From an uncultured Holdemania sp. (GTDB taxonomy: Bacteria; Bacillota_I; Bacilli_A; Erysipelotrichales; Erysipelotrichaceae): DNA of 37,759 nucleotides. Made by a program: the position numbers and the translations under genes. The stretch's first letter is position 1, and each line of letters starts with the position of its first letter. The DNA is taken from contig CAMQTJ010000017.1 in NCBI GenBank assembly GCA_947037125.1, positions 1 to 37,759 of the forward strand, given 5' to 3'. Below are positions 2,271-16,506 of this stretch, piece by piece. A model generated the notes under the pieces. The model saw only the letters and a list, made by a program, of their open reading frames with translations. It was not told the DNA's origin and made no database searches.

Positions 2271-2972
2271 ATGAATACTATATTAAAAACAGAAAATTTA
2301 AAAAAATGTTTTAATAATCAAATTGCAGTAAATGACATTTCACTAAACATTGAAAAAAACACAATCTATGGTCTACTTGGTCCAAATGGTGCTGGTAAGT
2401 CTACTATTCTTAAAATGATTTGTGGGATATTAAAACCATCAAGTGGAAATATTTTGATTGACGACCACCAATGGTGTCGTGATGACTTAGCTAATATAGG
2501 TGCACTAATTGAATCACCCCCACTATACGAAAATTTAACTGCTTATGAAAATTTAAAAGTAAAAGCATTAGTATTAGGTATTAATGAAAGTCGTATTTTT
2601 GAAGTTTTAGAAATTGTGAAATTAACAAACACTAAAAATAAAAAAGCAGGCCAATTTTCTTTAGGAATGAAACAAAGATTAGGTATTGCATTAGCGTTAT
2701 TAAATAATCCTAAATTATTAATTTTAGATGAACCAACTAATGGTCTTGATCCTGTTGGAATTGAAGATTTAAGGGCATTAATAAAATCTTTTCCAAGTAA
2801 AGGTATTAGTGTAATTTTATCTAGTCACATACTTAGTGAAGTCCAACAAATTGCTGATCATATTGGTATTATTTGCAATGGCAAGCTATGTTATCAAAAT
2901 GAAATATCAAAAAATATGGACTTAGAAAAACTTTTTATGGACATAGTAAAAAATGAAAGTTGTGAGGTTTAA
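2271..2972 (+). CDS. Lantibiotic-protection ABC transporter ATPase (LanF type; CprA/NukF/BcrA-like)
   Basis: This 233-residue ATPase powers an ABC transporter that removes lantibiotics or similar peptides from the membrane. It has Walker A GPNGAGKST (37-45), a signature FSLGMKQ (129-135), Walker B ILDEPTNGLD (151-160) and a switch-histidine segment near SSHILSE. The usual Q-loop glutamine is replaced by Glu81 in the segment IESPPLYENLT. This E-loop is characteristic of LanF proteins and argues against a generic exporter. The start has an AAAAGGAG site. The stop is one base from the next ATG, so the permeases are co-translated. Close relatives are likely CprA of Clostridioides difficile and NukF/EpiF/SpaF. 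Confidence 0.88.
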   Translation: MNTILKTENLKKCFNNQIAVNDISLNIEKNTIYGLLGPNGAGKSTILKMICGILKPSSGNILIDDHQWCRDDLANIGALIESPPLYENLTAYENLKVKALVLGINESRIFEVLEIVKLTNTKNKKAGQFSLGMKQRLGIALALLNNPKLLILDEPTNGLDPVGIEDLRALIKSFPSKGISVILSSHILSEVQQIADHIGIICNGKLCYQNEISKNMDLEKLFMDIVKNESCEV

Positions 2973-2973
2973 G

Positions 2974-3699
2974 ATGAATTATTTGAAATCAGAAAACTTA
3001 AAATTTAAATCAACTATAACTAATAGACTACTTTGGATTGCCCCTTTAATAACAACATTATTCGCCTGGTTTGTTGGTGGCTTTTACGGATTTCAATATA
3101 TGAGTTTTTATTGGTGGTATGCTTTTTTATTCTCAGGTACTATTGCCATTTTAACTGCTTTATCACATCAAAAGGAAGAAAAAGCTAGTAATTATTATTC
3201 TATTGTTTCGCTGAATATAAATCTTGAAAAATTTCAGTTATCAAAAAATATTATTATTGTAATTAAACTCATAATTACTACTTTATTTTTAATATTATTT
3301 GTATCTGTTAGTAATTTTATATCCCCAGCAACTGCTGTATATTCTATTTCAACAATTTTGATAGGAGGATTATGTGTGTGCTTATCATCAATTTGGCAAA
3401 TCCCTTTATGTTTTTATTTTATTAGAAAAACTGGAATGGCTTTTGTTATTGGTGCTAATTCCCTTCTCGCAATTTTTTCTCCAATTATCTTTGGAAACAC
3501 TTTTTTTTGGTTTTTAAATCCATATTGTTGGACAGCAAAACTTGCGGAGCCAGCACTTGGTATCTTACTAAATGGTACTTATACTGGAAATATTTCTTAT
3601 TCGTGGCTAATAATTATAATAATATTAATGTCGTTATTACTATTTTTTATTCTAGCCATACTAGATTCTAAAACATTTTCAAAAAAATGTATAAAATAA
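2974..3699 (+). CDS. Lantibiotic-protection ABC permease (LanE-like)
   Basis: The 241-residue membrane protein begins MNYLKSENLKFKSTITNRLLW, a cytosolic N-terminus typical of LanE/LanG permeases, followed by about six hydrophobic segments. The ATG at 2974 is preferred over the in-frame ATG at 2953 because GTGAGG (2962-2967) is a well-spaced ribosome binding site and the start then falls one base after the LanF stop. With the LanF ATPase and the next permease it should form a LanFEG complex. The subfamily assignment comes from gene order and general layout rather than a diagnostic motif. Confidence 0.8.
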   Translation: MNYLKSENLKFKSTITNRLLWIAPLITTLFAWFVGGFYGFQYMSFYWWYAFLFSGTIAILTALSHQKEEKASNYYSIVSLNINLEKFQLSKNIIIVIKLIITTLFLILFVSVSNFISPATAVYSISTILIGGLCVCLSSIWQIPLCFYFIRKTGMAFVIGANSLLAIFSPIIFGNTFFWFLNPYCWTAKLAEPALGILLNGTYTGNISYSWLIIIIILMSLLLFFILAILDSKTFSKKCIK

Positions 3700-4427
3700 T
3701 GAAATTTATATCTTTGATAAAATCTGAGTTTTATAAAATACGACATACATCTTTTTTAAACATTCATATATTTGCTGCACTAGCTGGTATATTAATATTT
3801 CTATTATATTTTTCAATTTATCAAAATGTTGACAAATATAAAAAAATTAAACTATTATTAGAATTCACTGCTATTGTTTTTCCATTACTTATTAGTATTG
3901 TTGTTGGAATTAATATTACTATAGAAGAAAAAGCAAACTATTTTCAAAGAATATTAGCAGTAAAAAATCGTAGTATATTATTATCAAAAATCTTATTACT
4001 TTTTTTAACTGGATTAATCACAATCTTTATGATGTTTATAATATTTTATTTCATTATTAATATCACTAATCTATCCCAAAATATTTCTCTATATTATTTG
4101 CTTTTTGTTGTAATTGGGCTTACCTTAACAAATTTTTGTATATATTTATTTCATCTATTCTTAAATTTAAAATTTGGACTTGGTATTTCTTTATTTTGGG
4201 GAGTTTTTGAAAGTCTACAAGTTATTTTATATAGTAATGTAAATCTCATTAGCATTTGGCGCTTTAATCCGTTTTCTTGGGGAGCAAGTTTTATTAATGA
4301 TTTTTTCAATAATAATTTAGTATCAAATATCAATGAATGGTTTATCATTATTTTAATTTCACTAGGCTGTTATGTAATTTTAATAAAATGGTTTAAACAA
4401 TGGGAAGGAAGAAAAAATTGTGAATAA
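3699..4427 (+). CDS. Lantibiotic-protection ABC permease (LanG-like)
   Basis: This is the second permease, about 242 residues, with an N-terminal cytosolic segment MKFISLIKSEFYKIRHTSFL and roughly six membrane segments. The ATG at 3699 overlaps the stop of the preceding permease (TAATG). An in-frame ATG four codons upstream at 3687 cannot be excluded, because neither has a strong ribosome binding site and re-initiation is plausible. The length matches LanG partners. The two different permeases plus one ATPase argue for the three-component LanFEG architecture. Confidence 0.8.
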   Translation: MKFISLIKSEFYKIRHTSFLNIHIFAALAGILIFLLYFSIYQNVDKYKKIKLLLEFTAIVFPLLISIVVGINITIEEKANYFQRILAVKNRSILLSKILLLFLTGLITIFMMFIIFYFIINITNLSQNISLYYLLFVVIGLTLTNFCIYLFHLFLNLKFGLGISLFWGVFESLQVILYSNVNLISIWRFNPFSWGASFINDFFNNNLVSNINEWFIIILISLGCYVILIKWFKQWEGRKNCE

Positions 4428-5226
4428 ATTTATAAATATATTTTGTCGCTTATCTTTTTGTTTCAGCATTATTACTTTAAGTGGTTGTAGTATAATCGAT
4501 AATCAAATTGATAAATATTCAAGTGATAAAGAACAATGTTATTTAAATAAATTAAATGTTACAGAGTTTACTTATCTTCAAAATGATTATATAATTTTAG
4601 ATGAAATATGTTCAAATGAAAATCTTAAAGAATGGGTTGGCTATATTAGAAAAATGGTCGCTATTAATGAAAATGGAGAAATTTTACTTCAACAAGAAAT
4701 CAATTCTTCTCTAATTAGTTCAACTAAAGATTTAGCTAGTGAAAAAGATGTGAAATATGTTTTATCATTTTTAAATGTATATAAAGAAAATGATAATTTA
4801 ATCCTTGATATCAATGGTAGTTATCATAAATGTATAAAAAAAGTTAATTTCACCAGTGATAAAGCTGTCTTTGACTTTAAAAAATATGGGAATTCTGACG
4901 TATTAAATAACTTCAAAATTAATGAGAATAATGCAACTCAACTTATAAATAATGAAGCAGTATATCAAGTTACTACAAAAGTTTTAGACAAAAATCAGTT
5001 AGGTAATTATTTAGATATTATTGCTGAAAACGTAACCTTTGATGATAATACAAATCAAGTTTTATCAAAAGATCAACTTTTAAAAATTGATTGGTTAGGT
5101 GAAAATAAAGATACAAGTATAACAAGTTGGATGTATTTAGATATTTACGAAATTATTGATATTGATTCCAGTATTTCAGTTGCTGTTAAAATTAATAATG
5201 AATATTATCAAGCAGATATTCAATAA
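4420..5226 (+). CDS. Lipoprotein of unknown function in the lantibiotic-resistance operon
   Basis: The start is GTG at 4420, eight bases inside the preceding gene, with GGAAGGA at 4403-4409 as ribosome binding site. The N-terminus is a hydrophobic signal ending in a lipobox LSGC, with Cys23 as the lipidation site, so the mature 246 residues should be anchored outside the membrane. The remainder is rich in Asn, Asp, Lys and Ser with no recognised domain. Its place between the LanG-like permease and the two-component genes suggests a role in peptide capture, immunity (as LanI lipoproteins do) or signalling. That role is inference, and no sequence match to LanI was recognised. Confidence 0.8.
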   Translation: MNKFINIFCRLSFCFSIITLSGCSIIDNQIDKYSSDKEQCYLNKLNVTEFTYLQNDYIILDEICSNENLKEWVGYIRKMVAINENGEILLQQEINSSLISSTKDLASEKDVKYVLSFLNVYKENDNLILDINGSYHKCIKKVNFTSDKAVFDFKKYGNSDVLNNFKINENNATQLINNEAVYQVTTKVLDKNQLGNYLDIIAENVTFDDNTNQVLSKDQLLKIDWLGENKDTSITSWMYLDIYEIIDIDSSISVAVKINNEYYQADIQ

Positions 5227-5262
5227 TATTTTATTATGATTTTTAAATAAGGAGGTAATTAT

Positions 5263-5922
5263 ATGGCATTAATACTTGCAGTTGATGATGATAATTCTAT
5301 ATTAGAATTAATTAAAAATTGTCTTTTAAAAGACAATCATACAGTTTTAACTTACACATCACCAAGTTTAGTTCCCCTTGATAGTTTAGGTAAGTATGAT
5401 CTTATTTTATTAGATATAATGATGCCAGATATTGATGGTTATATGTTTTGTGAAAAAATCAGACCCCTTGTTGATTGTCCTATTTTGTTTTTATCAGCAA
5501 AATCATTAGAAAATGATATTACATTCGGACTTAATCTTGGTGCAGATGATTATCTTTTGAAACCTTTTAGACTTTCTGAACTTAAAGCAAGAGTAAATGC
5601 TCATCTTCGACGTGAAAGTCGCGAAAAACACATTAGTTTATATTCTGGTAGAATCAGCTTAAACTTATCTGCCAAAACACTTTTAGTTGATCAAGATATA
5701 ATAGCGATGACTAAAAGTGAATATTTATTATGTGAATTTCTATTAAGAAATAAAGGACAAGTTTTTTCAAAAGAACAAATTTATGAAGCTGTATTTAGTA
5801 TATATGGTGAAAGTGATAATTCAACAATCACTACTCATGTAAAAAACATTAGGATTAAACTAAATAGCTTTGATGTATCTTCTATTACTACAGTTTGGGG
5901 GATTGGTTATAAATGGGATTAA
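5263..5922 (+). CDS. OmpR-family response regulator (likely lantibiotic-responsive, CprR/SpaR-like)
   Basis: The 219-residue protein has a receiver domain with the acidic cluster DDD (8-10), phospho-acceptor Asp51 in LILLDIMMPDIDGY and the LLKPF lysine loop. A C-terminal winged helix (about residues 125-219) contains SEYLLCEFLLRNKGQVFSKE and the terminal TTVWGIGYKW strand. AAGGAGG precedes the ATG. It overlaps the kinase gene by 10 bases, so the pair is coupled. In comparable operons such a regulator activates the adjacent LanFEG genes when the kinase senses the peptide; here that is inferred from position. Confidence 0.92.
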   Translation: MALILAVDDDNSILELIKNCLLKDNHTVLTYTSPSLVPLDSLGKYDLILLDIMMPDIDGYMFCEKIRPLVDCPILFLSAKSLENDITFGLNLGADDYLLKPFRLSELKARVNAHLRRESREKHISLYSGRISLNLSAKTLLVDQDIIAMTKSEYLLCEFLLRNKGQVFSKEQIYEAVFSIYGESDNSTITTHVKNIRIKLNSFDVSSITTVWGIGYKWD

Positions 5923-7289
5923 GAAAAACTAATTCATTAAAGTTCGCTTTTTGGAAATTTTTAATCATGTTATTGGCAGGTTTATTTTGTGCTGTAATTA
6001 TTCCATTTTGTTTATTTATCTTAAGTACAACATTTGGCTTTACTACTTCAGCTAATTATTCAGAACTAAGTGTTAAAGAAATCACTCCAATCATTGCCTC
6101 TACCGATGATTTATCAAAAATTCAATTGCCTACAGGTTGCAATTATTTAATACTTGATAAAAAGCTCCAGGTAATAGACACAAATTTAGATAGTGATGAT
6201 TTAAAATTAGCCATTAATTATGCCTCAACAGGAGCAGTTAATACTGATCACAATAAACAATTTACTTTAATAACTCGTGATAATGAATACGTTGTACTAC
6301 AATTCTATATAAATTCAACTTATACTAACCCTTGGCTCAGCAAGCATTTTATTTCCCCAGAACTTTTATTATGTATAATCATAATAATTAATTGTATATT
6401 AGTTTGTATTTACCTAACCACAAGTTTTGCGAAGAAATTGAGTTTACAATTAAATCCACTTTTTGAAGCAACTACTCAGTTTACAAATAAAGATCTTGAT
6501 TTTGAAATCGGACATTCTAGCATAAGTGAGTTTGAAGAATTACTAATTGCTTTTGATGAAATGAAAATTAGTTTAAATAAATCTCTTAAGAAACAATGGT
6601 TATCACAACAAGTTTTAAAAGAACAAATTGGAGCTTTAGCACATGATTTAAAAACTCCACTTACTGTTATCATGGGAAATGTTGATTTAATTAGTGATAC
6701 TAACATGAATGATGAACAAAAGTCTTATGCTAAGTATATTTTAGATAGTTCCTTACAAATGAAAACTTATTTAAAAATATTAATTGATATTACAAATACT
6801 TCATCTGGTTATAAACTTGCTTTAAAAAGTACTAATACACAAAATTTCATTAAGCAAATACAATCGCAGATCACAGCTTTATGTAATATCAAGCACCTTC
6901 AACTCGACTTCACTTTTACTAACATGCCCTTAAATATCTATTGTGATGAAATATTACTGCAACGATCTATTATGAATATCATTAGTAATGCTGTAGATAA
7001 TTCTTGTAATAAAGACTATATTCATGTTTGTTTTTGCACTAGTGATAATGATTTACTAATAAATATCACAGATCATGGTAAGGGATTTTCATATGATGAT
7101 CTAAACTATGGCAAACAACAATTCTATATGGCTAATAGTAGTCGAGATAATAAAATGCACTATGGTATGGGATTATACATTGCGGATTGTATTGTTCAAC
7201 AACATAATGGTCAACTTATATTAGAAAATTCTTTAATATCAAAAGGGGCAAAAGTCACAATCAAAATACCCTTATCAACGTTATGTTGA
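5913..7289 (+). CDS. Sensor histidine kinase, partner of the adjacent OmpR-type regulator
   Basis: The 458-residue kinase has two membrane helices (about 14-38 and 150-172) enclosing an extracellular loop of roughly 110 residues, then a linker, the phospho-acceptor His244 in GALAHDLKTPL, an N-box IISNAVDNSC and a G-box GMGLYIADCIVQQHNG. The 110-residue sensor loop resembles the layout of NisK/SpaK/CprK kinases that sense lantibiotics, but the ligand cannot be read from sequence. The gene ends in TGA and is followed by a strong hairpin, closing the operon. Confidence 0.92.
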   Translation: MGLRKTNSLKFAFWKFLIMLLAGLFCAVIIPFCLFILSTTFGFTTSANYSELSVKEITPIIASTDDLSKIQLPTGCNYLILDKKLQVIDTNLDSDDLKLAINYASTGAVNTDHNKQFTLITRDNEYVVLQFYINSTYTNPWLSKHFISPELLLCIIIIINCILVCIYLTTSFAKKLSLQLNPLFEATTQFTNKDLDFEIGHSSISEFEELLIAFDEMKISLNKSLKKQWLSQQVLKEQIGALAHDLKTPLTVIMGNVDLISDTNMNDEQKSYAKYILDSSLQMKTYLKILIDITNTSSGYKLALKSTNTQNFIKQIQSQITALCNIKHLQLDFTFTNMPLNIYCDEILLQRSIMNIISNAVDNSCNKDYIHVCFCTSDNDLLINITDHGKGFSYDDLNYGKQQFYMANSSRDNKMHYGMGLYIADCIVQQHNGQLILENSLISKGAKVTIKIPLSTLC

Positions 7290-7351
7290 AATTGAATTTT
7301 TTCATATTTGAATATATGGTTTATTTTAAAATAATTTATAATTATATCCCT

Positions 7352-7389
7352 AAATAAAAATACTATTATTTACAATAGTATTTTTATTT
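7352..7389. terminator. Bidirectional hairpin terminator closing the lantibiotic-resistance operon
   Basis: A perfect 16-bp inverted repeat (7352-7367 with 7374-7389) has a six-base loop. The arms themselves are A-rich on one side and T-rich on the other, as in intrinsic terminators with U-tracts in the stem foot. Confidence 0.8.
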
Positions 7390-7453
7390 GCATTTTAATA
7401 ATCTCAAATATATGTAATTCTATGATACAAAAAATATTCAATAACTATATAAC

Positions 7454-7483
7454 TTGCCTAAAAAGTTATTTTTTTGGTATAAT
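7454..7483 (+). promoter_or_regulatory. Sigma-A-like promoter of the LytTR two-component genes
   Basis: TTGCCT (7454-7459) and TATAAT (7478-7483) are separated by 18 bases. They lie about 90 bases upstream of the chosen start of the response regulator. This also argues that the in-frame extension from 7422 is not translated. Confidence 0.65.
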
Positions 7484-7571
7484 CAATTCATATAAGCATA
7501 AAAAAAGTATGTTTTTAAAAGTAAGTATTATATCAATAAGATTGGTTATAAAATTATTAAGGGGGATATTT

Positions 7572-8282
7572 ATGAATATTGTTTTATGTGATGATGATCA
7601 ATTACAGATCGATTTACTACAAAAATACTTAGCAAAGTGGCAAAATAAAAATAATAATTATTGTTCTTGTATAAGCTTTTCATCTGCAATTCAATTACTT
7701 TTAAATATCGAAGATTTACAAAATACCGACCTATTTATTTTAGATATTGAAATGAAAGATTTGAATGGTATGCAACTTGCAAAAAAATTACGTGATTTAA
7801 ATTTCAATTGTCAAATTGCATTTATTACAGGCTATAAAGAATATGTTTTTGAGGGCTATTTAGTAGATGCCATTTCTTATATTTTAAAACCATTATCTGA
7901 AAATGAGTTTTTTTCATGTCTTGATAAAGTTGTAAACAAGCAACAAAAACAACAAGCTACAATTCTTGTTCAAACTGAATCTGGTATACAAAAAGTCATT
8001 GTACAAGATATCGTTTGCATCGAAAGTCAAAAACACAACTTACTTATTACAACCAAAAATGGTTCATTAATAACAAGAATGACAATAAATCAGATAGAAG
8101 ATTTATTAAATAATCAATTCTTTATTTCTCCACATCGCTCATATCTTGTGAACATCGCTTATATTGAACGAATTAATAAAAGTGAAATCCAACTTATTAA
8201 AGAATTAATCATTCCAATCGCAAGAGGTAAGTGGCAACTTATAAATAAGTGTTATCTTGATTATTACAGAGGTAAAATCTAA
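7572..8282 (+). CDS. LytTR-family response regulator (AgrA/VirR-like)
   Basis: The 236-residue protein has a receiver domain with DDD (7-9) and phospho-acceptor Asp58 in LFILDIEMKDLNG. A LytTR DNA-binding domain from about residue 125 includes ESQKHNLLITTKNGSLITRM and the FISPHRSYLVNIAYIERI core. The ATG at 7572 is chosen because AAGGGGGA precedes it at 7559-7566. The 50 codons upstream in the same frame overlap the promoter and look non-coding. The stop overlaps the next ATG (TAATG), so the kinase is coupled. The probable target is the pair of 21-bp spaced repeats in front of the downstream exporter genes. Confidence 0.9.
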   Translation: MNIVLCDDDQLQIDLLQKYLAKWQNKNNNYCSCISFSSAIQLLLNIEDLQNTDLFILDIEMKDLNGMQLAKKLRDLNFNCQIAFITGYKEYVFEGYLVDAISYILKPLSENEFFSCLDKVVNKQQKQQATILVQTESGIQKVIVQDIVCIESQKHNLLITTKNGSLITRMTINQIEDLLNNQFFISPHRSYLVNIAYIERINKSEIQLIKELIIPIARGKWQLINKCYLDYYRGKI

Positions 8283-9421
8283 TGGAATCATTAACTTATA
8301 TTATTTTAGTCATTTTGCTTATGTATTATATTCATAAAATAGGTGATATTAAAATTGATAAAAAATTAGTCATTATCTTAAGTTTAACTTCTTATTTACT
8401 ACTATTTTTATCAAGTCTAATTTTTGTTGGTTATATCACAATATTCTTTATCCTGTTACTACTTATTGGTTATGCAGGTTTTTATGGGCAACAACCATTT
8501 GTATTACAATATAAATATTATCTTATAATGTTAATAACTTTTCCTATTTTGTTTTATTTATTTAAAACAAATTTGATAACTAGTTCAACATTATTATTAT
8601 TAATAGAATTATTTTTACTTATTCACTTATCATTTAAGGCTAGAAAATTAGTATCACTATGGAATTTAATAATAGTTATCATTTTCATTTTACTTATATT
8701 TAATAAACAACAATTGATTTCTATATTATTATCCACATTAGTATTTATAATCTTAGAATATGGGTTTAATTCATATAAAAAACAATGTGATCAAAACACT
8801 AATAGTTTAGTCGATTCTATTATTAGTTCACAGTATGAAGAAATCAAAAGTATTTACCTTAATATGCGTGGCTTTAGACATGATTATCATAGTCATATCC
8901 AAGCAATAAAAGCACATGTTTGCAATAATCAAATAAAAGAATTGACTAGTTATTTAAATCAACTTGAAACCGATTTAACAAGTATTGATAGTTATATCAA
9001 ATCTGGAAATGTTATGATTGATGCTATTTTAAATAGTGAACTAACTATAGCGCAAAACAACGATATCCCCTTTACTTGCAAGGCAATTTGTCCAGATTAT
9101 CTTACAATCAAAGAAACGGATTTATGTGTTATTTTAGGAAATGCATTAGATAATGCCATTGAAGCATGTATATTAGATGATCGTGTTGATAAATTTTTAC
9201 GTATTTATATTGTAGTCAATAAACAACAATTATATATTTCAATTCAAAACTCAGCAATAAAGCAAATGAATTTTAATCAAAAAAATTATATCAGTAGTAA
9301 AAAAGGTAATCATGGACTTGGTCTAAAAAGACTAAAACACACTATTAATAAATATGATGGCTATTTAAATCTTCAAAATGAAGAAGGTGTTTTCGCAACC
9401 GAAGTTACCTTACCTTTATAA
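8282..9421 (+). CDS. GHKL-type sensor histidine kinase (AgrC/BlpH-like), partner of the LytTR regulator
   Basis: The first 165 residues are strongly hydrophobic with about six membrane helices, as in peptide-sensing kinases of the AgrC/ComD class. A short coiled linker leads to the phospho-acceptor His200 in RGFRHDYHSHI, the N-box ILGNALDNAIEAC and the G-box NHGLGLKRLKHTINKYDG typical of HPK10 kinases. No AgrB protease gene and no obvious autoinducer peptide gene lie nearby. The ligand may thus be an external peptide or an envelope stress signal rather than a self-made pheromone. Confidence 0.9.
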   Translation: MESLTYIILVILLMYYIHKIGDIKIDKKLVIILSLTSYLLLFLSSLIFVGYITIFFILLLLIGYAGFYGQQPFVLQYKYYLIMLITFPILFYLFKTNLITSSTLLLLIELFLLIHLSFKARKLVSLWNLIIVIIFILLIFNKQQLISILLSTLVFIILEYGFNSYKKQCDQNTNSLVDSIISSQYEEIKSIYLNMRGFRHDYHSHIQAIKAHVCNNQIKELTSYLNQLETDLTSIDSYIKSGNVMIDAILNSELTIAQNNDIPFTCKAICPDYLTIKETDLCVILGNALDNAIEACILDDRVDKFLRIYIVVNKQQLYISIQNSAIKQMNFNQKNYISSKKGNHGLGLKRLKHTINKYDGYLNLQNEEGVFATEVTLPL

Positions 9422-9464
9422 TCTTATATTTTAAAAAAAATAAATAAGATCAATTTTGTTTAGT

Positions 9465-9531
9465 ACATTTGGTGTCGCTATAATAACATTTAGTGCCAAA
9501 ATATGAAAAAAGATAATTAATTAGCTATAAT
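9465..9531 (+). promoter_or_regulatory. Exporter promoter with tandem LytTR-type operator repeats
   Basis: Two near-identical direct repeats, ACATTTGGTGTC (from 9465) and ACATTTAGTGCC (from 9486), start exactly 21 bases apart. A TATAAT -10 element lies at 9526-9531 with no good -35 (ATGAAA at the expected place). The second repeat ends just upstream of the -35 position. LytTR regulators (AgrA, ComE and BlpR types) bind direct repeats of about 9-10 bp separated by about 12 bp and activate promoters with a weak -35. The assignment to the adjacent LytTR regulator is an inference. Confidence 0.65.
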
Positions 9532-9558
9532 TAAACCAAGATTTAGGAGGTCAAAAAA

Positions 9559-11373
9559 ATGAATAAAAAAAATTATTCAGTTTTATCAAACCTTAAATAT
9601 TCGCTTGGTTTTTTTGTATTCTACATGAAAAAATCAACTTTATTTATTGGAGTCATGGATATTGTAATAGGTGTAGCAATTCCTTTTGTAAGTGTTTTTA
9701 TACCTAGTATCGCCATTTATTATTTAACTGGTGATTTTGATGTGATTACATCAATTATCGTAATTATTTCTAGCATTGTTATTTTTCAACTAATTTCTAT
9801 TTTATCAGTTAAACTTGAGAAAACATTTAGTGGAAAACTTTTTATTTTTCGATTACATTTCACTAAAGAATATAGTGACCATATTATTGATATGGACTAT
9901 GAAGCTATGGAAAGTACACAAGGGCGTAAGCAGTGTGCAAATGGCTTAGAAATGGTTTATATGGGTAATGAAGATGGTATTGAAGCTTATCTTCGTTATT
10001 TTTTTGGTGTCGTTAAAAATTTATTAGGTTTAGTTATTTCAATAATAATAACTTATACATTACATCCATTAATCGTTGTATTTTTAATTCTTAGTTCAGT
10101 AGGCGTTATATATTTTAACGATCAATTTCATAAGTTTAATGTTGAAAACGAAGATTTTAATGCAGCCTACTATGCAAGAAATCAATACCTTGAAAAAACT
10201 AGTATTGACCCAAAAAACATTAAAGATATAAAGCTTTATTCAATGCAAAAATGGATAGCGAGCTTATATGAAAGGCTTATTAATGATCGCAAAAAATATA
10301 TTGATATTTATTTTAACATCATGTTTAAATCAACTCAGTTTACACTAGTATCTACATTTTTAAAGGATATTATAGTATATTTATATTTAATATATTGTCT
10401 TATTCAAAATACAATTGATGTTCCTTATTTTATTATGTATGTAGGTGTTATTTCTACTTTATCTAATTGGTTGATTGAAGTTTTCAATAATTATAAAGAG
10501 TTTATTCGTAATGATATTGTCATTAGTAATTTCAGAAACTTTAAACAATATGGTAAACCTTTAAAAAGTAATGGTAAATCACTGTTAAAAAATGAAGCTC
10601 ACAGTATCACTCTTGAAAATGTAAGTTTTAAATATTCTGACAATGATAAATATTCAATCGATAATTTATCTTTAGAAATTAAAAAAGGTGAAAAACTTGC
10701 AATAGTCGGTGCCAATGGTGCAGGTAAAACAACTTTAGTTAAATTAATTTGTGGTCTATACACACCTACAAAAGGTCGAATATTAATCGATGGAATTGAT
10801 TGTGCTACTCTTTGTAAAGATCAAATTTTTAAAGAATTCTCTGTTGTTTTTCAAGATGAAGTTATTTTTGCATTTGATGTAGAAAGTAATGTTACTGGAA
10901 ATATTGAAAGTAAAACTGATTATATTAAGCTTGAACAGGCATTAAAACAAGCAGGGATTTACGATAAAATTGAAAGTCTTCCAAATAATATCAAACAAAA
11001 TATGACTAAAAGAATTTATGAAGATGGGGTAGAATTTTCAGGTGGTGAATCTTCTAAATTAATGCTTGCTCGTGCCTTATATAATGATGCACCTGTTATG
11101 ATTTTAGATGAACCTACAAGTGCTCTTGATCCAATTGCAGAAAGTATATTATATGAAAGCTATAATCAATTAATTGAAAATAAAACAAGTATTTTTATTT
11201 CTCATCGTCTTAGTTCGACAAGATTTTGCGATAGAATTATCTTATTGGGTGATGGAGCTATTCTTGAAATTGGAACCCATGAACAGTTAATGAATAAGGG
11301 TGGGGCATATCACAACATGTTTGATATTCAATCACATTATTATAAAAAAAGTGAGGTGAAAAACAATGACTAA
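9559..11373 (+). CDS. ABC exporter half-transporter, membrane plus ATPase domain (first of a pair)
   Basis: The 604-residue protein has an N-terminal membrane domain of about 320 residues with five or six helices. The ATPase domain has Walker A GANGAGKTT (384-392), signature FSGGES near 493-498, Walker B MILDEPTSALDP (514-525 region) and ISHRLSS. There is no N-terminal C39 peptidase domain, so it does not itself cleave a leader peptide. TAGGAGG precedes the ATG, and the gene overlaps the next by eight bases. The pair probably forms a heterodimer exporting a peptide or small molecule, or protecting against one. The substrate is not visible in the sequence. Confidence 0.88.
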   Translation: MNKKNYSVLSNLKYSLGFFVFYMKKSTLFIGVMDIVIGVAIPFVSVFIPSIAIYYLTGDFDVITSIIVIISSIVIFQLISILSVKLEKTFSGKLFIFRLHFTKEYSDHIIDMDYEAMESTQGRKQCANGLEMVYMGNEDGIEAYLRYFFGVVKNLLGLVISIIITYTLHPLIVVFLILSSVGVIYFNDQFHKFNVENEDFNAAYYARNQYLEKTSIDPKNIKDIKLYSMQKWIASLYERLINDRKKYIDIYFNIMFKSTQFTLVSTFLKDIIVYLYLIYCLIQNTIDVPYFIMYVGVISTLSNWLIEVFNNYKEFIRNDIVISNFRNFKQYGKPLKSNGKSLLKNEAHSITLENVSFKYSDNDKYSIDNLSLEIKKGEKLAIVGANGAGKTTLVKLICGLYTPTKGRILIDGIDCATLCKDQIFKEFSVVFQDEVIFAFDVESNVTGNIESKTDYIKLEQALKQAGIYDKIESLPNNIKQNMTKRIYEDGVEFSGGESSKLMLARALYNDAPVMILDEPTSALDPIAESILYESYNQLIENKTSIFISHRLSSTRFCDRIILLGDGAILEIGTHEQLMNKGGAYHNMFDIQSHYYKKSEVKNND

Positions 11374-13207
11374 AAAAAGTGAGATATTTAACACAGTTTA
11401 TAGGTTATTAAAGTTAATGCATTCTTTTGATAAGGATTTAATTCCCTTGTCATTGTTGTGTGCTATATTTAGTGGTATAACTCCATACCTTGCTATTTTT
11501 ATGTCAGGTTTATTACTTGATAATCTGCATAGTAAAAATTATGAGTTAGCTTTTTATATTGTAATCTTTTTTTCAACATTAATTTTTATATTAAGTTATT
11601 TAAAGGAATACTTCCAAAAAATTCGTTGTAAAAAAAATAACTGTAATGAACCTAAATTTGCAGCATTCATCCGCGATAAAATGCTTTCGTATAAATATGA
11701 AAAAATACAAAGTCCGCAAGTTTACCAAAAACTAGTTCTATTAGAAAGAATGATAAGCATATCAGGTGGTGTTGATGCTCTTGTTGCGAAATTAATAATA
11801 TTTCTAAAAGGATTAATTTCTTCACTTATCTCTTTTATCATGATTATCTATTTATGTTTAACTTTGCCACAAAGCGACAATCAAGTATTATCTTTAATTG
11901 CATCTCCTATTGTTTCAACCTTAATTATTTGTGGTTTTATAACACTTACTTTAATGATAATAATACCAAAAAACCGTAAGTTTAATCAAGCTTTACAAGA
12001 TTTATTACAAATACAAGGGAAAAGCGAGCTTGCTATTACTTCAATTATTACTGATATATTACAAAATTATAAAGTTGGAGCAACTACACGTATTTATGAT
12101 ATGGGTGATATGCTAAAGCAACGTCTTATGGATGTTAATGAAAATGATATTATAAAATGCCATAAAATGTTTGCTGATTATATTACAAACCTTGCTGTTT
12201 TTCATTCAATTAGTAAATCAGCCATTATAGTCGTTGCTTATTTTGTTATTCTTGTAAAGATATTATCAAATGCCATCACAATCGGGATGTTCACAACTTA
12301 TGGACTAATGATAACGTTCTTTACTTCTACTTTAATGGATACTTTAAGCAGTTACACAACAATTTGTTCTATTAGTAATTATCTTAAATATTATCTTGAA
12401 ATATTAGATTGGAAAGAATGTGAAGAATCTGGTAGTATTCCAATTGAAAAAAGATTAGATAATGAATACGAAATTGAATTTAAAGATGTTTGCTTTCATT
12501 ATCCTGATACTGATGTTGAAGTATTAAAAAACATTAATTTCAAGTTAAACTTAAAAGAAAAAATGGCCATTGTCGGTAAAAACGGAGCAGGTAAAAGTAC
12601 CTTTATTCATTTGTTAGTTAGACTTTATAAACCTACTAGTGGAATGATTACATTAAATGGTATTGATATTCAAAAGTATGATTATAATGAATACATCAGT
12701 TTATTTTCAGTAGTTTTTCAACAATTTAAAATGTTCGCCTTTTCTATTAAAGAAAATGTTACAACAACAAAAAATTGTGATGAAAAAAAATTAAGAGAAG
12801 TATTAACTCAAGCAGGAATCATGGAAAGAATTGATGAATTAGAACAAGGTGTTGATACATTTTTAATGAAATATAATGAGGATGGCGTAGAATTTTCAGG
12901 TGGTGAAATGCAAAAACTTGCCATCGCCCGTGCCCTATATAAAGATGCACCATATGTTATTTTGGATGAACCAACAGCAGCACTTGATCCATTAAGTGAA
13001 TATGAAATCTATAAAGGTTTTGATGCAATGGTTCAAGATAAAACAAGTATTTATATTTCTCATAGAATGAGTAGTTGTCGCTTTTGCCCTAATATTATTG
13101 TTTTTGATATGGGTGAAATTGTAGAAACAGGAAGTCATGATGATTTACTTAAACTTGATGGTGTATATTCAACAATGTGGAATGCACAAGCTCAATATTA
13201 TGAGTAA
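11366..13207 (+). CDS. ABC exporter half-transporter, membrane plus ATPase domain (second of a pair)
   Basis: The 613-residue partner has the same layout: membrane domain to about residue 340, then Walker A GKNGAGKST (404-412), Q-loop VVFQQF, signature FSGGEMQ (510-516), Walker B VILDEPTAALDP (with Asp534-Glu535) and ISHRMSS. Both pair members keep the catalytic Walker B glutamate and switch histidine, so neither site is obviously degenerate, unlike many heterodimeric exporters. GAGGTG at 11352-11357 is the ribosome binding site. A weak AT-only hairpin with a T-run (13218-13247) may end the transcript. Confidence 0.88.
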   Translation: MTKKSEIFNTVYRLLKLMHSFDKDLIPLSLLCAIFSGITPYLAIFMSGLLLDNLHSKNYELAFYIVIFFSTLIFILSYLKEYFQKIRCKKNNCNEPKFAAFIRDKMLSYKYEKIQSPQVYQKLVLLERMISISGGVDALVAKLIIFLKGLISSLISFIMIIYLCLTLPQSDNQVLSLIASPIVSTLIICGFITLTLMIIIPKNRKFNQALQDLLQIQGKSELAITSIITDILQNYKVGATTRIYDMGDMLKQRLMDVNENDIIKCHKMFADYITNLAVFHSISKSAIIVVAYFVILVKILSNAITIGMFTTYGLMITFFTSTLMDTLSSYTTICSISNYLKYYLEILDWKECEESGSIPIEKRLDNEYEIEFKDVCFHYPDTDVEVLKNINFKLNLKEKMAIVGKNGAGKSTFIHLLVRLYKPTSGMITLNGIDIQKYDYNEYISLFSVVFQQFKMFAFSIKENVTTTKNCDEKKLREVLTQAGIMERIDELEQGVDTFLMKYNEDGVEFSGGEMQKLAIARALYKDAPYVILDEPTAALDPLSEYEIYKGFDAMVQDKTSIYISHRMSSCRFCPNIIVFDMGEIVETGSHDDLLKLDGVYSTMWNAQAQYYE

Positions 13208-13529: not shown

Positions 13530-14318
13530 ATGGAATTTAATGATAAATTAATGCAATTAAGAAAAGAAAAAGGTTGGTCACAAGAAGAATTAGGAATTAA
13601 AATTAATGTTACAAGACAAACTATATCAAAATGGGAGCTTAAAGAAACTACACCTGAAATGAAGAAATTAGTAGAACTAAGTAAAATATTTGATGTATCA
13701 ATTGATAGTCTTGTTGGGAATAAATCAAATGATATACCTTCACAAAAAGTTGTCCATCATTATAGTTTTGGATGTGCTCCTTATGAATATATTAGTAAAA
13801 TAAAACTTTTCAATCTTCCTTTAGTTCATATAAATGTAGGTAATGGTCATGCTTCAAAAGCAAAAGGTATCATTGCAATTGGAAATTATGCTTACGGTTT
13901 AATTACTATCGGGTTATTTTGTTTTGGTGGCATAAGCATTGGAATATTGCCTATTGGATTATTTTCTTTAGGATGTTTATCAATAGGTCTATTGTTAAGT
14001 ATTGGAGCAATAGCGATAGGTACTGTCTCAATCGGTGGTATTTCAATAGGTATATTTGCTACTGGAGGACTTGCTATTGGATTTTATGCACTTGGTGGTG
14101 CTTGCTTTGCGAAAAATATTGGTGTTGGTGGATATGTACAAGCAGCTATTGCAATTGCAGATATTCCAACTGGGGATATCACCTTTAATACTAATAATGT
14201 TATTAAGTTCAATGAAGTACAATCAGCTATTAATCAAAATCTTCCTGATACACCAAAATTTATCTGTGACTTTTTCGCTAAGATTGCGGAATTGTCATCT
14301 ATGAGCAATTATCGTTAA
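13530..14318 (+). CDS. XRE-family regulator fused to a glycine-pentad repeat domain
   Basis: Residues 1-63 form a Cro/CI-type helix-turn-helix (LGIKINVTRQTISKWE recognition region). After a linker, residues 113-190 form a repeat in which glycine falls at every fifth position: 113, 118, 123, 128, 133, 138, 143, 148 and 153, then one residue of slip, then 159, 164, 169, 174, 179, 184 and 189. The residue before each glycine is mostly Ile, Leu or Phe. Such regularity suggests a solenoid or packed membrane-associated fold rather than ordinary helices. The last 50 residues are non-repetitive. AAGGAGG supports the start. Firmicute proteins of this layout exist, but their function is not known to me. 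Confidence 0.8.
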   Translation: MEFNDKLMQLRKEKGWSQEELGIKINVTRQTISKWELKETTPEMKKLVELSKIFDVSIDSLVGNKSNDIPSQKVVHHYSFGCAPYEYISKIKLFNLPLVHINVGNGHASKAKGIIAIGNYAYGLITIGLFCFGGISIGILPIGLFSLGCLSIGLLLSIGAIAIGTVSIGGISIGIFATGGLAIGFYALGGACFAKNIGVGGYVQAAIAIADIPTGDITFNTNNVIKFNEVQSAINQNLPDTPKFICDFFAKIAELSSMSNYR

Positions 14319-15302: not shown

Positions 15303-16506
15303 ATGGTACAGCGTAAAGAATATCTTCAAAAGCTAATAAATCAGCGAGAGCAAAAAGTAATTAAAGTTGTAACAGGTGTACGTAGATGTGGTAAATCTAC
15401 ATTATTCCAGTTATATCAAACTTATTTGAAGGATACAGGAGTGGAAGAAAATCAAATTATATCCTTAAATCTCGAAGATATTGAGTTTGAAGAACTTTTA
15501 GATTATAAAAAATTATATGCCTATATCAAAGAGCGACTGTGTGCTGATAAATTCACATAAGTATTTATTGATGAAGTGCAAAGTTGTAATAATTTTGAAA
15601 AAGTTGTAGATAGTCTATTTATTAAAGATAAAGTAGATGTATATATTACAGGTTCAAACGCTTATATGCTATCTGGAGAGCTGGCAACTTTACTTTCTGG
15701 ACGATATGTAAAAGTAGATATGTTACCACTATCTTTTAACGAATATACACAGGCAAATGTGAACATGGAAAAATCTAAAATGGAAAAGTTTAACGATTAT
15801 TTACGTTTTGTTCATTTCCATATGTGGCTACCTCTTACAAAAATTTAGATAATATTCCAAGTTATTTGGATGGTATTTATAGTTCTATTTTAATTAAAGA
15901 TGTTGCAAAGCGTGAAGGGATTACTGATGTTGCGTTGCTTGTAAGTATTGTGAAAACGGTGGCTGCGAGTATTGGCAGCCCTATTTCTATAAAGAAAATT
16001 TCTAACATTATTGTTTCATCTGGAAGGAAAATATCTGTAAATACTGTTGATAACTATCTGAGCGCACTGTGTGATGCTTGTATTTTCTATAAAGTAGTCG
16101 TTATGATATTAAAGGTAGACAGCACCTGAAAACATTAGGCAAATACTATATGGTCGATACAGGTATTCGAAATTTACTATTACCATCTTCTGGCGCTGAC
16201 CTTGGACATTTAATTGAAAATATAGTATATTTTGAGCTCGTTAGACGTGGGTACAAGGTTAATATTGGAAAAGTGGCAGAAAAAGAAGTAAACTTTGTTG
16301 CAAGTAATATGGAAGGTATTTTGTATGTTCAAGTATCGGCGTCAGTTCTTGATGAAAATACTTTGAAAAGAGAATTAGAATCACTTGAAGCAATATCCGA
16401 TCATCACCCTAAAATTTTATTAACCTTAGATGAAATCGGAAATGGTGCAAATTTCAACGGAATAAAGCACCTCAATTTACTCGATTGCTTACTAGGTATA
16501 GTATAG
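15303..16506 (+). pseudogene. AAA+ ATPase with DUF4143-type C-terminus, broken by one stop and two frameshifts
   Basis: The three-part frame would encode about 400 residues, the normal family length. It begins with MVQRKEYLQKL, Walker A GVRRCGKST and the Walker B region VFIDEVQ, followed by the ITGSNAYML sensor. Lesions are TAA at 15558-15560 (where Tyr is expected before VFIDEVQ), a one-base deletion near 15810 (restoring RFGSFPYVATSY across it), and another frameshift near 16098 (restoring RYDIKGRQHLKTLGKYY). The C-terminal part, with FELVRRGYKVNIGKV and EVNFVAS, is the nuclease-like DUF4143 region. Reading continues to TAG at 16504-16506. An intact member of the same superfamily lies at 19597-20886. 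Confidence 0.88.

Follow-up and report, generated by a model that had tools for sequence, protein, structure and literature searches.

A regulator gene from an uncultured Holdemania sp. joins an XRE DNA-binding domain to a conserved glycine array, probably built of ten-residue units

A helix-turn-helix regulator whose C-terminal domain has a glycine at every fifth position raises the question of whether such an array is a repeat fold or a set of ordinary membrane helices, and of what it does for a DNA-binding protein. We analyzed such a gene in a 37,759-nucleotide stretch of contig CAMQTJ010000017.1 from an uncultured Holdemania sp. (hereafter the window). The open reading frame is intact, with 262 codons and an ATG start, and its features are listed in Table 1. 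The DNA-binding domain scored 55.3 bits against the Pfam HTH_3 profile (cut-off 23), and AlphaFold2 run on a two-sequence alignment gave pLDDT block means of 72–92 across residues 1–60.

Table 1. Features of the XRE-array gene, with positions in the window.
Feature	Residues	Position	Strand	Basis
Ribosome-binding-site-like aaggagg, a few bases 5' of the start codon		13519..13525	+	sequence reading
Whole gene, XRE helix-turn-helix regulator with glycine-repeat C-terminal domain, 262 aa		13530..14318	+	ORF reading, Pfam
XRE/HTH_3 DNA-binding domain	7-60	13548..13709	+	Pfam HTH_3, E 7e-15
Conserved cap motif 5' of the array (YEYISKIKLFNLPLVHINVGNG..AK)	85-112	13782..13865	+	alignments A1/A2
Period-five glycine array, 16 pentapeptides [AS]-[ILF]-G-x-[ILF]	113-189	13866..14096	+	sequence statistics
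One-residue slip, Gly 153 to Gly 159	153-159	13986..14006	+	sequence statistics, relatives
Degenerate, more polar repeats 3' of the array	190-217	14097..14180	+	alignment A1
C-terminal helical tail, conserved P...F...F helix	224-258	14199..14303	+	alignment, AlphaFold2

The first-pass annotation had counted 16 glycines in a period of five, and a recount gave the same positions: nine from 113 (113, 118 and so on to 153) and seven from 159 to 189, separated by a single six-residue step. As it had also stated, the residue before the glycine is mostly Ile (10/16) or Leu (2/16). It had not mentioned Ala or Ser at position -2 in 13 of the 16 repeats, mostly Ile, Leu, Phe or Tyr at +2, the alternation over ten residues or the conserved cap motif. 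Residues 105–215 contain 14 glycine pairs at a spacing of five, compared with 5.2 on average in shuffles that kept the composition, none of which reached 14 in 100,000 trials; an unbroken chain of nine period-five glycines was attained in three of 100,000 shuffles of the same region.

Sequence comparison showed that the glycine-array C-terminal domain is a real and conserved family with a patchy distribution. A single-sequence query found array relatives in 17 of 392 genomes sampled from the phylum, and profile searches found them in 21 of 395 genomes of the class and in 9 of 245 of the order. One full-length relative belongs to Treponema lecithinolyticum; in its phylum, 12 of 198 genomes gave matches, mostly weaker, the Treponema genome being one of the 12. 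It had been argued that relatives lacking the period would speak against a repeat fold: the period was kept in all 16 aligned sequences, whereas the mid-array one-residue slip recurred in about half of the relatives. Across these 16 sequences, the register position was Gly in 99% and position -2 was Ala or Ser in 92%, with Ile, Leu, Phe or Val at -1 and +2 in most. Alignments A1 and A2 gave the domain order cap, array, more polar repeats and helical tail, with the consensus YEYxSKxKxxxxPLVHIxxG...AKGIIAIGN just ahead of the array.

Pfam and NCBIfam searches gave no family covering the array domain. Its profile had no match in the PDB, where the whole protein matched helix-turn-helix relatives only. 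Three protein or alignment scans of viral contigs yielded no relative, the array was present in none of the 11 viral contigs found by DNA pattern, and phage records gave no match. Domain copies with stop codons inside (L047/L067 and L081, in G083 and G730) suggest gene loss in some genomes. A miaA-like gene sits immediately upstream of the XRE-array gene in four genomes from a related family (L090, L115, L116 and L117), and since this position is stable, vertical inheritance is indicated there.

The structural unit of the array is, to judge from its residue pattern, probably ten residues, i.e. two pentapeptides. Three tests on the sequences agreed in this. A second glycine came after the register glycine in every other repeat, 70% at a lag of two and 17% at a lag of one, against a base rate of 16%. 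The residue following each glycine alternates between small and large with a period of ten; the autocorrelation of its size was +0.64 at lag 2 and -0.27 at lag 1, and none of 5000 within-array permutations reached either value. The slip-corrected array length, measured as the distance from Gly113 to Gly200, was 76 or 86 in 20 of 21 sequences (6 of the 21 lengths were carried over from a separate measurement); that is, lengths were never one pentapeptide apart, and the steps were whole ten-residue units. The single exception, 75, came from a protein with an end that was hard to align, and one protein (G210) gave 86 when counted from the start picked by the alignment and 96 when counted from the first AKG motif, values that both fit ten-residue steps. 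Because the sequences share ancestry, the permutation test and the length counts are not fully independent, and the lengths 76 and 86 may be the product of a few ancestral events. The pentapeptide harmonic at 2.5 residues was strong (16–28) in the eight sequences that lack the mid-array slip; a slip cancels it over the whole array.

The suggestion that the array is a repeat fold and not a set of membrane helices was supported by these statistics; the two structure predictions were too uncertain to show a fold. The array departed from what is expected of transmembrane helices, namely a 3.6-residue periodicity and polar loops between segments of roughly 20 residues: the spectral power of side-chain volume at 3.6 residues was at most 0.7 in all 16 sequences, i.e. 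there was no alpha-helical periodicity, and no charged residue occurred for 82 residues. On this pattern, ordinary transmembrane helices are unlikely. An AlphaFold2 run with the window protein first in a two-sequence alignment gave pLDDT 20–33 for the array, and a second two-sequence run with the Treponema domain first gave two long low-confidence helices (pLDDT roughly 45–59). The cap motif formed beta strands in both models, at low confidence.

The array is probably a narrow beta-coil placed against or within the membrane. A coil of ten residues, made from two pentapeptides, is described as the shortest that a beta-solenoid can have and was predicted with AlphaFold2 for mycobacterial PPE repeats (PMC9663297). 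Four prediction methods agree on a solenoid for the Pentapeptide_2 family; AlphaFold2 over-predicts solenoids for perfect repeats, and such predictions can be false (PMC11795689). The PPE analogy for the array fold is itself a prediction. A ten-residue coil is so narrow that its interior should admit Gly, Ala and Ser alone, and Ile, Leu and Phe would then lie on the outside.

The PPE-MPTR proteins (PF01469, Pentapeptide_2) share with the array a glycine at every fifth position, a small or polar residue at -2 and a decapeptide unit, and the sequence period of ten together with the ten-residue length steps fits a two-pentapeptide coil of this type. PPE-MPTR pentapeptides have Asn at -2. The array differs in having Ala or Ser there and Ile, Leu or Phe elsewhere, and its domain carries the conserved cap motif and an attached DNA-binding domain. 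Some array relatives gave weak Pentapeptide_2 profile matches (E 0.0022–0.0039), the best at 18.3 bits against a gathering cut-off of 26.4, and the window protein gave none. Since these matches lie below the Pfam cut-off, we regard the relation as likeness and not membership. The window domain scored 13.3 bits against the GLTT repeat (PF01744, cut-off 21), which some relatives also matched weakly, and at least one relative passed at 26.6 bits, a match that is probably compositional. Canonical pentapeptide-repeat proteins (A[DN]LxX, quadrilateral beta-helix) also repeat every five residues and have a small residue at i-2, whereas the array has Gly in place of Leu or Phe at the centre, hydrophobic in place of polar neighbours, and a unit of ten and not twenty residues. 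Identity with these proteins was rejected on register, and there was no match to that Pfam family.

The array has a mean hydropathy of 1.78; for comparison, four ABC proteins of the window reach 1.59–1.74 in their most hydrophobic stretches of 76 residues. Since the array sits within the charge-free stretch, membrane association is likely; its hydropathy and the company that the domain keeps likewise point to a likely membrane-apposed position. By eye, members from a second phylum carry the module close to the N-terminus of larger proteins, and a hydrophobic segment that looks transmembrane comes after it. Three of them (L085, L086 and L088; open frames of 594–640 aa) contain decapeptides of the form QFGFGxIxxS, with Gln recurring every ten residues, and this array variant is followed by the hydrophobic segment and a long tail.

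In three relatives, each in a different genome, a short HAAS-like domain with a GxP motif replaces the XRE domain ahead of the array, and the gene directly upstream encodes PadR in all three (Pfam E 4e-24 to 7e-22). The HAAS-like domain had no HAAS match in Pfam or NCBIfam. With 13 repeats, the array of this HAAS version is the shortest. Unlike these systems, the window protein has its DNA-binding domain in the same chain as the array, and it has neither a HAAS domain nor a PadR partner. A proposal for HAAS-PadR pairs is that they pass on signals from the membrane or from inside the cell (PMC11237479), and the same paper notes HAAS with pentapeptide repeats in Firmicutes (AOH56696.1). Since the array module is found swapped, fused to a DNA-binding domain in one setting and paired with a separate regulator in the other, it is most simply a sensor or an anchor, and its occurrence with an entirely different DNA-binding partner makes it look like an undescribed, reusable sensing module. 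The first-pass conjecture that the state of a solenoid controls transcription gains support from this swapping, while still being a conjecture.

The reading that we favor, at about even odds, is that the window protein is a membrane-associated one-component regulator with a hydrophobic solenoid of ten-residue coils that senses the envelope. The N-terminal XRE helix-turn-helix would bind an operator, and the C-terminal beta-solenoid, with two pentapeptides per turn, would anchor the regulator to or in the cytoplasmic membrane and sense the state of the envelope. Gly and Ala or Ser would occupy the narrow core, with Ile, Leu and Phe pointing outward to lipid or a partner chain. A membrane disturbance or a lipophilic antimicrobial might then alter solenoid packing or dimerisation and, in turn, DNA binding. 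A bolder version, which we think unlikely, is an inside-out transmembrane beta-solenoid that serves as a plug-in for different DNA-binding domains, having a Gly/Ala/Ser core, lipid-facing Ile, Leu and Phe and about eight coils crossing the bilayer. Eight coils of ~4.8 angstrom would span ~38 angstrom, near the thickness of a bilayer, an arithmetic of the model to which we give no evidential weight. No solved membrane protein of this architecture is known to us.

Other readings of the domain have to be weighed against these. The array could be a soluble or sub-membrane solenoid whose large residues pack into the core or onto a partner chain and which acts as a scaffold for dimerisation or docking, not as a part of the membrane. 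HAAS partners of the pentapeptide type have been called intracellular (PMC11237479), which favors this possibility and counts against a solenoid in the membrane; in addition, Knotted Solenoid proteins dimerise via hydrophobic surfaces (PMC13123833), and polar coils and a helical tail come after the array. This alternative is nevertheless somewhat unlikely, given the hydropathy and the long run without charge, the continuation of second-phylum members into hydrophobic segments, and a ten-residue coil that would offer little space for large core residues. It is also possible that the array is a bundle of ordinary glycine-rich transmembrane helices. BcrR-type regulators likewise have an N-terminal XRE helix-turn-helix followed by a hydrophobic domain, with ~33% identity over query residues 1–104. 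The hydrophobic domain of BcrR consists of conventional transmembrane helices, whereas the window protein has the glycine pentapeptide array. The hydropathy of the array equals that of transmembrane stretches, the second AlphaFold2 model was helical at low confidence, and membrane-bound helix-turn-helix regulators are common (PMC10269533), but the lack of charge and of a 3.6-residue periodicity, together with strict periods of five and ten and length changes by ten residues, makes a helix bundle improbable.

A further possibility, compatible with any fold, is that the protein is a local regulator of the neighbouring export and lantibiotic-immunity genes and that its repeat senses a lantibiotic-type peptide. 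Directly upstream, a same-strand block (2953–13207) encodes MutE- and MutG-type lantibiotic immunity permeases, a VanR/VanS-like pair, a LytTR/GHKL pair and two ABC exporters, a content that suggests a role in envelope stress. In two genomes of the same family, the gene order by eye is FtsH, XRE and a MATE-like exporter, which also speaks for local control. Against it, the exporters, which end at 13207, are separated from the XRE-array gene by 322 bp, and the XRE versions had no common neighbour or conserved target gene (FtsH and MATE-like in two genomes, miaA in four, the others singletons, with names assigned by eye). An operator search upstream identified none: promoter-like sites occurred there at chance number, and the inverted repeats were simple AT-rich pairs. 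We consider this reading distinctly unlikely. The lack of a conserved target gene among the XRE versions also weighs against the favored envelope-sensing reading.

The array family is of wider interest. Since the module is conserved and shared, and Pfam, NCBIfam and the PDB contain no match to it, solving a single structure would serve to annotate a whole family of probable sensors, comprising XRE fusions, HAAS/PadR systems and the larger proteins of the second phylum. The family also supplies naturally occurring sequences on which the predicted shortest beta-solenoid coil can be tested, and if the solenoid truly lies in the bilayer, it would represent a third membrane-domain architecture besides helix bundles and beta-barrels.

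PADLOC matches were rejected as evidence for a defence function, as they concerned the helix-turn-helix only. Elsewhere in the window (15303–16506), four successive same-strand open reading frames resemble, by eye, pieces of one ATPase, the first with the P-loop GVRRCGKST; they probably represent a decayed gene or sequencing frameshifts.
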